Shown: one piece after another, positions 43,154 to 44,677 of the stretch
Layout of the letters: every line of letters begins with the position of its first letter
Position numbering within the stretch: position 1 is the first letter of the stretch
Source of the DNA: Pelomonas caseinilytica
GTDB lineage: Bacteria > Pseudomonadota > Gammaproteobacteria > Burkholderiales > Burkholderiaceae_C
Reading direction: 5' to 3'
Assembly (NCBI RefSeq): GCF_021353235.1
Contig: NZ_JAJTWT010000001.1
Span: 496,001-560,000, forward strand
Length of the DNA stretch: 64,000 nt
Made by a program: the position numbers and the translations under genes
The notes under the pieces: generated by a model
Database searches by the model: none
The model's input: the letters and a program-made list of their open reading frames with translations, nothing else
Told to the model about the DNA's origin: nothing

Positions 43154-43181
43154 AATCTAGCATGAATGGCTACTGATGCAA
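43154..43181 (-). promoter_or_regulatory. Possible promoter of the leucine leader, overlapping the pssA end
   Basis: On the minus strand TTGCAT (43176-43181) and TAGATT (43154-43159) are 16 bp apart and would start transcription only a few bases before the leader ATG. Both hexamers are imperfect, and the -35 lies in the last codons of pssA. Readthrough from pssA is the alternative. Confidence 0.35.
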
Positions 43182-43994
43182 GCCGCGCTCGTCGGGCTCG
43201 TCGGTGCTCGTCGAGATGACGCTGACCGGCTTGCCCTTGGCCTTGCGCCAGCCGTAGATGGCATAGCCCGACAGGCCGTAGACGCAGAAGACGCCGAAGA
43301 GAACGCGCGAGGGATCGAGTGCCGCCAGGCCGATGCCCAGCATGATCACGACCAGCACCACGAAGGGCACGGAGCGCCGCCGGTCGAAGACTTTGAAGCT
43401 GTAGAAGGGCGCATTCGTCACCATCGAAAGCCCGGCGAACAGCGTGATGCCGTAGGCCGCCCAGGCGACCCAACTGCCCGGCTGCACGCCGGTGTAGCTG
43501 GCCTGGTCGACCACCGCCCAGATCAGGCCGATGACCAGCGCCGCCGCGGCCGGGCTGGGCAGGCCCTGGAAATAGCGCTTGTCCACCACGCCGATGTTGA
43601 CGTTGAAGCGCGCCAGGCGCAGCGCCGCCCCGGCGATGTAGACGAAGGCCGGGATCCAGCCCGGCTTGCCCATGTCCTTGAGGGCCCACATGTAGACGAT
43701 GAGGGCCGGCGCGGCGCCGAAGGCCACCATGTCGGACAGGCTGTCCATCTGCTCGCCGAAGGCCGACTGGGTGTTGGTCATGCGCGCGACCCGGCCGTCC
43801 AGGCTGTCGAGCACGGCGGCGGCGAAGATGGCCACGCAGGCCACCTCGAAGCGGCCGTTCATGGCCATGACGATGGCGTAGAAGGCGCTGAACAGCGCGC
43901 CCAGGGTGATGGCATTGGGCAGGGCGTAGATGCCCTTGCGGCGGGGACGGACGGCGATGCTGGGCTCGTCGTCCTCGATGGGATCGGGAGTCAT
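43170..43994 (-). CDS. pssA: CDP-diacylglycerol-serine O-phosphatidyltransferase
   Basis: A 274-residue integral membrane enzyme that makes phosphatidylserine, precursor of phosphatidylethanolamine. The CDP-alcohol phosphotransferase motif D-x2-DG-x2-AR-x8-G-x3-D-x3-D is seen at residues 63-88 (LDSLDGRVAR...GEQMDSLSD). Six or more hydrophobic helices follow; the C-terminal ~15 residues are charged. The start at 43994 gives the usual short cytoplasmic N-terminus. In Burkholderiales this gene commonly lies between ilvC and leuA; here the link with ilvC is broken by two plus-strand genes. Confidence 0.93.
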   Translation of the reverse strand: MTPDPIEDDEPSIAVRPRRKGIYALPNAITLGALFSAFYAIVMAMNGRFEVACVAIFAAAVLDSLDGRVARMTNTQSAFGEQMDSLSDMVAFGAAPALIVYMWALKDMGKPGWIPAFVYIAGAALRLARFNVNIGVVDKRYFQGLPSPAAAALVIGLIWAVVDQASYTGVQPGSWVAWAAYGITLFAGLSMVTNAPFYSFKVFDRRRSVPFVVLVVIMLGIGLAALDPSRVLFGVFCVYGLSGYAIYGWRKAKGKPVSVISTSTDEPDERGLHQ

Positions 43995-44046
43995 GGGGCG
44001 GCAGGATAGCGCAGGGGGCCTGCTGACAGGTCCGGACGATGGCAGG

Positions 44047-44313
44047 CCTAGTCCACTGCGTCGGGGAAATGACACCCCCGCCGGGGCGTAAAGGCAGGCA
44101 GGCAAGGCGCGAGGAGGCCGTGGGTCGGGACCCACAACGACGAGCAACGCTGAATGCCTGCCTTTACGCCCCGGCCCGCAGGGTGAGGTCCCAAGCCGGC
44201 CCACTCGGCGTTGCTCGGCCTCGCCGGGGCCCGACCCCGGCTGCGCCTCGCGCCTTGATTGGGCCGGCTTGGGACCTCACGGGGGTGCCATTTCCCCGAC
44301 GCAGTGGCCTAGG
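44047..44313. repeat. 267-bp composite palindrome: two long hairpins inside an outer inverted repeat
   Basis: Outer arms 44047-44080 and 44280-44313 match in 32 of 34 bases. Inside are two hairpins, each with a perfect base stem: 20 bp (44081-44100 with 44155-44174) and 21 bp (44183-44203 with 44260-44280). Their loops are themselves related in inverse orientation: the first reads AAGGCGCGAGG...GTCGGG...GAGCAACGC, and the complement of the second reads AAGGCGCGAGG...GTCGGG...GAGCAACGC. Each loop holds a further small stem (GTGGGT/ACCCAC at 44120-44135). The single strand would fold like a cloverleaf. It fills most of the 344-bp pssA-NIPSNAP divergent gap. No ORF or known transposase end. Confidence 0.85.
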
Positions 44314-44338
44314 ATGCGCAGCTCGCTGGAGTCCACGC

Positions 44339-44677
44339 ATGAAGCTGATCGAAATCCGCACCTACAAGCTCAAGCCCGGCTGCGCCGAGCGTTTCGTCGC
44401 TGCCGTGCGCACGGCCCTGCCCCTCGTGCGGGCCAGCGGCATGGACGTCGTCGCCTTCGGCCGCTCCGACCACGAGCATGAGAGCTTCTACCTGATCCGT
44501 GCCTATGACAGCCGCGAGCAGCTCATCGCGCAGCAGGAAGCCTTCTACGGCTCCGCCACCTGGAAGCAGGGCCCGCGGGCCGAACTGGTCGACTGTCTGG
44601 ACGACTACCTGAACACCCTGCTGTGGCTGCCGCCCGATGCCGTCGAGGCGCTGCGCGCCCACAATGGGCTCGCATGA
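44339..44677 (+). CDS. NIPSNAP-family small protein
   Basis: A 112-residue ferredoxin-like alpha/beta (dimeric alpha-beta barrel) protein. IEIRTYKLKPG at residues 4-14, then FYLIRAYDSREQLIAQQEAFYGSATWKQGPR, matches the NIPSNAP family of small proteins, whose function is unknown. Start ATG at 44339, GGAG nine bases upstream. It is only 25 bp past the composite palindrome, so any promoter must lie inside or at the edge of that repeat. Overlaps the next gene by 4 bp (ATGA). Confidence 0.8.
   Translation: MKLIEIRTYKLKPGCAERFVAAVRTALPLVRASGMDVVAFGRSDHEHESFYLIRAYDSREQLIAQQEAFYGSATWKQGPRAELVDCLDDYLNTLLWLPPDAVEALRAHNGLA

Follow-up and report, generated by a model that had tools for sequence, protein, structure and literature searches.

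In the short gap between two divergent gene starts of the window, i.e., of the 64,000-nucleotide stretch of Pelomonas caseinilytica DNA that was analysed, there lies a long palindromic element which, taken as a whole, is with good probability a MITE that inserted at CTAG, that depends for its movement on a DDE transposase acting in trans, and that possesses a conserved, folding interior. As a single element it is of a known kind, that is, a MITE. What merits attention is the conserved folded interior, which is common to elements possessing different ends.

Structure of the Element

An earlier note on this DNA described a 267-bp composite palindrome which as a single strand would fold into three arms, a description that is borne out. 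The outer arms (44047-44080 and 44280-44313), 34 nt each, are complementary at 32 of 34 positions (94%). Within them are the inner arms of two hairpins, those of hairpin A (44080-44100 and 44155-44175) being 21 nt and 100% complementary, and those of hairpin B (44183-44206 and 44257-44280) being 24 nt and 96% complementary, the first 21 bp perfectly so. Two perfect stems are present as had been claimed, though with lengths of 21 bp in both cases rather than of 20 and 21 bp. The loop contents had been called inverted copies of one another, and the 12-base motif CAAGGCGCGAGG (44103-44114) does recur, inverted, in the second loop at 44246-44257. Aligned with its own reverse complement, the window element is 72% identical.

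As DNA, positions 44040-44320 fold at -121.2 kcal/mol (z -13.3) and, as RNA, positions 44048-44312 fold at -203.1 (z -15.1), with 0 of 200 shuffles equally stable in either case. The minimum-energy RNA fold consists of an outer stem and two long hairpins, plus a 2-bp stem between the two hairpins. The element proper is 257 bp (44052-44308), with the CTAG to either side representing duplicated target, and its two hairpin units meet tail to tail across a common CCCGCAGGG. The features are as follows, where R1 is a covariance model of the hairpin unit:

44048-44051, no strand: CTAG, the duplicated target's left copy (7 of the 8 empty orthologous gaps have a single YTAG, by-eye alignment)
44052-44079, plus strand: left terminal inverted repeat, 28 bases (arm shared with the genome's other copies, full as well as solo)
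44080-44175, plus strand: hairpin unit A, a 21-bp perfect stem with core CAAGGCGCGAGG ... GAGCAACGC (R1 match 44080-44187, 87.1 bits)
44176-44182, no strand: linker, within a small palindrome, CCCGCAGGG (44175-44183), in which both units have their tail
44183-44280, minus strand: hairpin unit B, inverted, a 24-bp stem with one mismatch and with unit A's core on the minus strand (R1 match 44171-44280, 91.6 bits)
44281-44308, minus strand: right terminal inverted repeat, 28 bases (by arm comparison)
44309-44312, no strand: CTAG, the duplicated target's right copy (onward bases give TAGGAT, 44310-44315)

Genomic Setting

To the left of the element a minus-strand CDP-alcohol phosphatidyltransferase gene (PF01066; presumably pssA) starts at 43994, and to its right a plus-strand NIPSNAP-like gene (PF07978, 24.6 bits vs. 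a cut-off of 22.3) starts at 44339. The element had been placed correctly, that is, between divergent gene starts and with its 44313 end 25 bp short of the NIPSNAP-like start. The TAGGAT to which the right CTAG gives rise is 23 bp ahead of the NIPSNAP-like ATG.

The element has no gene of its own, with those open reading frames that cross it being extensions of its neighbours or else mechanical. Open frames starting in or beside the element do reach both neighbours (44039-44677, plus strand, 212 codons; 43170-44204, minus strand, 344 codons), and read-through proteins with additional N-terminal residues are possible on paper. An effect of the element on neighbour expression, as had been proposed, is plausible but is a guess, as a promoter and terminator scan at the window copy returned neither a consensus promoter nor an intrinsic terminator, with no terminator-like T tract following the hairpin. 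Looking by eye for an IHF site yielded AATCAA in unit B, without the second half of the consensus as that consensus stands in the available text of PMC3281130.

Copies, Empty Sites, and Target Duplication

A second copy of the element, 99% identical, is found in the same genome (G000:C36:329822-330086), as too are partial copies and a divergent composite (C12:106287), and two relatives (G006 and G003) possess copies at 86-92%. As other copies with different flanks exist, chance or an assembly artefact is a very unlikely origin. The NIPSNAP-like gene is present in 9 of 60 genomes searched, this one included, and in all eight of the others the orthologous gap is empty. Where the window has CTAG to both sides of the element, those empty gaps, by by-eye alignment, have an intact YTAG in seven of eight cases and CTGG in the eighth. 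Outer arms match at 90-94% over approximately 31 bases and at 28% beyond, so the borders of the element are sharp.

The element, that is, is short, gene-less, multicopy, bounded by terminal inverted repeats, flanked by a target duplication, and missing from orthologous sites, as bacterial MITEs are, and its target, YTAR, is as with MITEs derived from the IS5 family. The earlier note's idea of a non-autonomous, MITE-like transposed unit is upheld on these grounds. With blastn, the window element matched nothing in plasmid and phage collections.

The flanks of composites more generally tell of the same target. Among 74 composites, a number that includes near-identical copies, 38 have YTAR at both flanks, at matching distances of 26-30 bases from the units, 58 have it at one flank or both, and 16 have it at neither. 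Seven of the 74 (L171, L172, L176, L182, L187, L188, and L189) had been obtained by means of a YTAG-containing pattern, and leaving those out gives 35 of 67 with YTAR at both flanks. At six control offsets (72-74 composites each) 0 have YTAR at both flanks and 2-8 have it at one or both.

A sister element of 269 bp, including its YTAG ends, is present as five copies which are 98.9-100% identical and which possess different flanks, and this suggests a recent burst. The L147/L148 pair is given as 97.3% over 297 bp in that comparison, as it there extends into flanks. Sister copies have CTAG at both ends, with one copy having TTAG on its left.

Solo palindromes, made from the outer arms alone, are seen as well, in contigs C34, C38, and C37 of the window's own genome. 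These are approximately 45-75 bp, consist of terminal repeats only, and are at YTAG-like sites (G000:C34:73301, C38:275976, C37:227432, and also C16:12262), with further such palindromes at G006:C54:62901, C10:32988, and C34:176893. Probably they are internal-deletion forms. By eye, those of C34, C38, and C37 of G000 begin at a stop codon.

Four contig ends of one draft genome (G084; L064, L065, L081, and L028) fall within copies of such elements. As contigs end within copies, these palindromes evidently can break assemblies, and copy numbers from drafts may be too low. A long insertion sequence at these contig ends was considered and rejected, with the contigs stopping instead inside of copies of this kind of element.

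A Conserved Hairpin Interior

The plan of a unit is a stem of approximately 22 bp around CWAGGCGC, then a small hairpin, then GCAACG, followed usually by CCC-NNN-GGG. R1 gives 171 matches, of which 169 were used for pair geometry, two in L174 (duplicates of L163) being left out. These 169 represent 74 inverted pairs, all of them plus-then-minus, along with 21 single matches, and the unit models overlap by 16 bases in 73 of the pairs and by 18 in the remaining one. The earlier note's suggestion of a repeat that was doubled head-to-head is correct as to symmetry but not as to history, that is, the inverted pair with its near-constant overlap is the standing architecture of a superfamily and not a local doubling.

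Pairing is seen in 95.7% of 3789 cells from 139 distinct units, 1399 cells have changed on both sides, and the covariation score is 0.865 (vs. 0.18), where 0 of 500 shuffles reach either that score or that paired percentage. Double-change cells, paired percentage, and covariation score are similarly reached by no slid register and by 0 of 500 shuffles. As to how many pairs show a double change, however, 56 of the 500 shuffles do as well. Across 84 units, AGGCG and CAAC show 99-100% conservation, which in part is a product of choice, as units were searched for by those motifs. The same is the case for core conservation and covariation in alignment A1 (36 units from 44 non-redundant of 70 extracted), all of whose units were chosen by core motif and stem. 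Alignment A2, of 150 of the 171 matches from 96 loci, was fitted to the model.

The covariance model, with up to 41 and up to 13 candidates scored per genome respectively, has matches in at least 56 of 90 relatives' genomes and in at least 79 of 274 from a sample spanning the class, this genome included in both cases and with at least 31 matches of its own. Another genome, G042, has at least 41. Of 20 distant loci, all possess the unit and 18 the inverted pair, the exceptions being L232, where the contig ends at the unit, and L235, with one unit only; one view of these loci shows 19 of the 20, with L232 left out. Rough ungapped clustering at 60% distinguishes 21 outer-arm types (approximately 20), where one-base shifts can split a type. 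By eye there is, in addition, an arm family with outer arms like TTCAACCTGGAAACGGCAGTTG and only one hairpin, as seen with the single-unit elements L070, L087, and L090 (G042, G034).

The interior of the element, in other words, is not random filler. What persists across the class is a pair of inverted units with constant spacing and with a bulged core that barely varies, whereas stems and terminal repeats differ. Rfam 15, applied to the window stretch and 18 loci, returned nothing above gathering score, with three microRNA-model matches all below it. Nor was a description of this double-hairpin superfamily seen among the papers listed by literature searches of a mainly open-access collection without preprints, and the six genus and class names looked for are absent from PMC3733652.

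Element Ends and a Candidate Transposase

The ends of one type of element are shared with an autonomous one. Particularly, GGCCTGTTAACACTA terminates an insertion sequence of 821 bp that is found, with CTAG on both sides, in G002 and G004, and which has two overlapping reading frames with matches to DUF4096, DDE_Tnp_1, and the IS5 model NF033580. Presumably this IS5-family insertion sequence is of the IS427 group. It is located at L173:698-1518, L175, and L246:1133-1953, and its frames overlap around an A-run, possibly as a programmed frameshift. The same 15-mer is found exactly (15/15) at both ends of a composite in a relative (L176), and sister copies in the window's own genome have 14 of its 15 bases. 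One arm type starts GGCCTGTTMACACTA, and it is for the GGCCTGTT arm type that ends common to an autonomous element are seen. Based on these sequence matches, IS5-type mobilisation of the sister type appears well supported.

The insertion sequence and the sister type thus are alike in CTAG to both sides and terminal GGCCTGTTAACACTA. The insertion sequence differs from the window element in encoding a transposase, in ends that agree over approximately 15 bp rather than 28-30, and in having no hairpin unit by R1, as R1 finds none in the IS5-type loci L173, L175, L245, and L246. Its transposase is present in 3 of 21 genomes, and not in the window's own (E 1e-10), while two weaker, below-cut-off matches to the IS5 model in the latter possess no CTAG-flanked ends among the best six pairs per locus.

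For the window's own ends no autonomous partner was found in 36 genomes, where eight end matches lack a composite or solo partner (L198, L200, L202, L203, L204, L205, L210, and L218) and have no exact 10-base inverted partner within their 3-kb locus. A composite at L205:538-742 is approximately 800 bp from one such unpaired copy of the window's end sequence. IS5-type mobilisation of the window's own type is something that we infer. Two more IS5-type loci have CTAG on both sides but other ends (L257:1049-2227 and L248:1160-2333). Copies of IS5 in E. coli, as described in the available text of PMC11677980, are situated between CTAA or CTAG sites.

Strand Asymmetry and Arm Matching

Among 84 units of less than 85% identity, related units which are not independent of one another, sense-strand mispairs are GT or TG in 77 instances versus AC or CA in 22. 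A model-free stem fit gives 68 versus 20 (75 of the 84 units, with cells treated as independent). Without the two most contributing columns these counts are 47 versus 20, and are 27 versus 12 and 16 versus 3 at stricter redundancy cuts. As arm-to-arm repair would yield equal numbers, this excess suggests selection on one folded strand, which would be the sense strand. A C-to-T mutation bias on that strand could also yield the excess, however, and the excess consists mostly of TG rather than of GT (51 vs. 17 by the model-free fit), which wobble tolerance alone does not predict. The asymmetry, furthermore, fits both RNA and single-stranded DNA, that is, does not separate the two.

From a different perspective, matching between arms might be kept up not by selection but instead by template-switch repair of quasi-palindromes at replication. 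Consistent with such repair, three adjacent bases are jointly changed on both arms among close copies (columns 43-45 with 116-118, six full copies). Template switching would leave the conserved core and the fixed spacing unexplained, and it should be strand-symmetric, yet GT/TG mispairs exceed AC/CA mispairs. We view it as an unlikely, though the least unlikely, of the rivals to a transposed MITE with a conserved interior.

Landing Sites

In 28 of the 55 insertions that have enough flank, versus 18 of 105 control CTAG sites (p 1.6e-5), the TAG of the target is, to one side or both, an in-frame stop codon of whichever frame is most gene-like. Frames were called from GC at third codon positions together with an open run of 60 codons, independently of annotation. 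Control sites were from the window's own genus along with a few other loci around Y1 genes, some of these loci overlapping. Counted end-wise, stop-codon-like TAGs are 32 of 84 versus 5 of 44 YTAG readings in the window. Open runs of at least 95 codons number 34 in the TAG frame and 29 and 16 in the other two, a weak separation of frames, so that it is GC3 which carries the association with stop codons. The window copy, located between two gene starts, is an exception.

Such landing sites bring to mind a structured RNA or regulatory 3' element which the host keeps for the ends of its mRNAs, with mobility incidental. Covariation of the stems, wobble asymmetry of the sense strand, and enrichment at stop-codon-like sites all are as that idea would have them. 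The element nonetheless is missing from orthologous loci, the sister set is multicopy and near-identical, Rfam gave no match above gathering score for the window stretch and 18 loci, and the window copy lacks a terminator-like T tract. Host retention of an RNA is, by this balance, distinctly improbable relative to insertion of a mobile MITE.

Comparison with REPs

The earlier note called the element REP- or MITE-like, and it is the first of these, in its RAYT sense, that is not supported. What would be at issue is a REP- or REPIN-type element that is spread by a RAYT (Y1, HUH) transposase acting on single-stranded hairpins, with CTAG the cleavage tetranucleotide and with no target duplication. 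REPs, BIMEs, and REPINs with TnpA-REP, as presented in the available text of PMC8266576 (cf. PMC3116915 and PMC2817692), do resemble the window element in having hairpins with conserved bulges, strand-specific recognition, inverted pairing, and intergenic locations. Y1 transposase genes moreover are common, found in 34 of 40 genomes searched and with three in the window's own genome, and a single-strand transposon which ends in CTAG and inserts after CTAG is formally possible and would look identical.

REP units, by the same partial account (PMC8266576), are 20-50 nt and mostly possess a GTAG tag, whereas the window family has long units of approximately 100 bp, terminal repeats flanked by YTAR, and no association with Y1 at the loci tested. 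Palindromes of 20-50 nt with an adjacent GTAG or CGTC tag are not what is found, ends instead being of YTAG type. Applied to the surroundings of Y1 genes at 36 loci (113,798 bases, including the three of the window's own genome and with overlapping second copies of loci left out), R1 gave no match. A RAYT/Y1 partner accordingly was rejected, as motif and hairpin scans of these loci gave single motif matches, which do not make a unit. With the sister type's end being common, in addition, to a DDE-type insertion sequence of the IS5 family, movement by RAYT is very unlikely, the least probable of the alternatives. At L110, L131, and similar loci, the Y1 (RAYT-like) gene is in what, by shared flanking motifs, seems a conserved genus neighbourhood lacking flanking hairpin units, and the gene there perhaps is domesticated.

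Other Repeats, Proposed Explanation, and Meaning

MITEPsy1 of Pseudomonas syringae is, like the window element, short, non-autonomous, and bounded by terminal inverted repeats, and it duplicates CTAG or YTAA and is thought to be derived from ISPsy2. By description it is set apart, being 100 nt with 18-nt repeats and with no conserved double-hairpin interior mentioned in the available text (PMC3189936). QMITE elements of Coxiella (PMC5896051; reviewed in PMC10969869) similarly are, from what is available of their description, MITEs with a long stable fold, but with direct repeats of 2-4 bp (QMITE1) or 7-9 bp (QMITE2). Repeats R0-R200 of P. fluorescens, also as described in the available text (PMC2718517), are likewise intergenic, with five families possessing flanking inverted repeats, and are biased to tail-to-tail gene pairs.

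The window copy would have come about by insertion at CTAG in the short gap between the CDP-alcohol phosphatidyltransferase and NIPSNAP-like genes, with duplication of four bases. It has no gene, and a DDE transposase that prefers YTAR, most likely one of the IS5 family, would have moved it in trans. Each unit would have to fold single-stranded, as lagging-strand DNA or as RNA, for recognition by a host or transposition factor, and an inverted pair would offer one correctly oriented hairpin on either strand. With units inverted, and one sense unit thus per strand, the element should work in either orientation. That the core has a function is what we infer. As YTAG is a stop codon in many of these GC-rich genomes, insertion may often spare the neighbouring frame and add a very stable 3' hairpin, which together would lower the cost of insertion.

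More speculatively, and offered as a possibility that we do not favour outright, the inverted double hairpin may be a conserved, folded single-strand module that is transposase-independent, riding within approximately 20 terminal-repeat sets on many YTAR-targeting transposases, with a class-wide factor reading the bulged core and with insertion at stop codons nearly harmless.

Such palindromes offer one explanation of why contigs break off in draft assemblies, and the covariance model can be used to annotate intergenic palindromes that are outside of Rfam. MITEs usually are regarded as deletion remnants of one insertion sequence, their interiors disposable. Here it is instead the interior that is conserved across a class and the ends that vary. 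What now can be tested is the role of a MITE's interior in its movement, the persistence of long near-perfect palindromes, and whether bacteria possess a shared factor that reads bulged hairpins.
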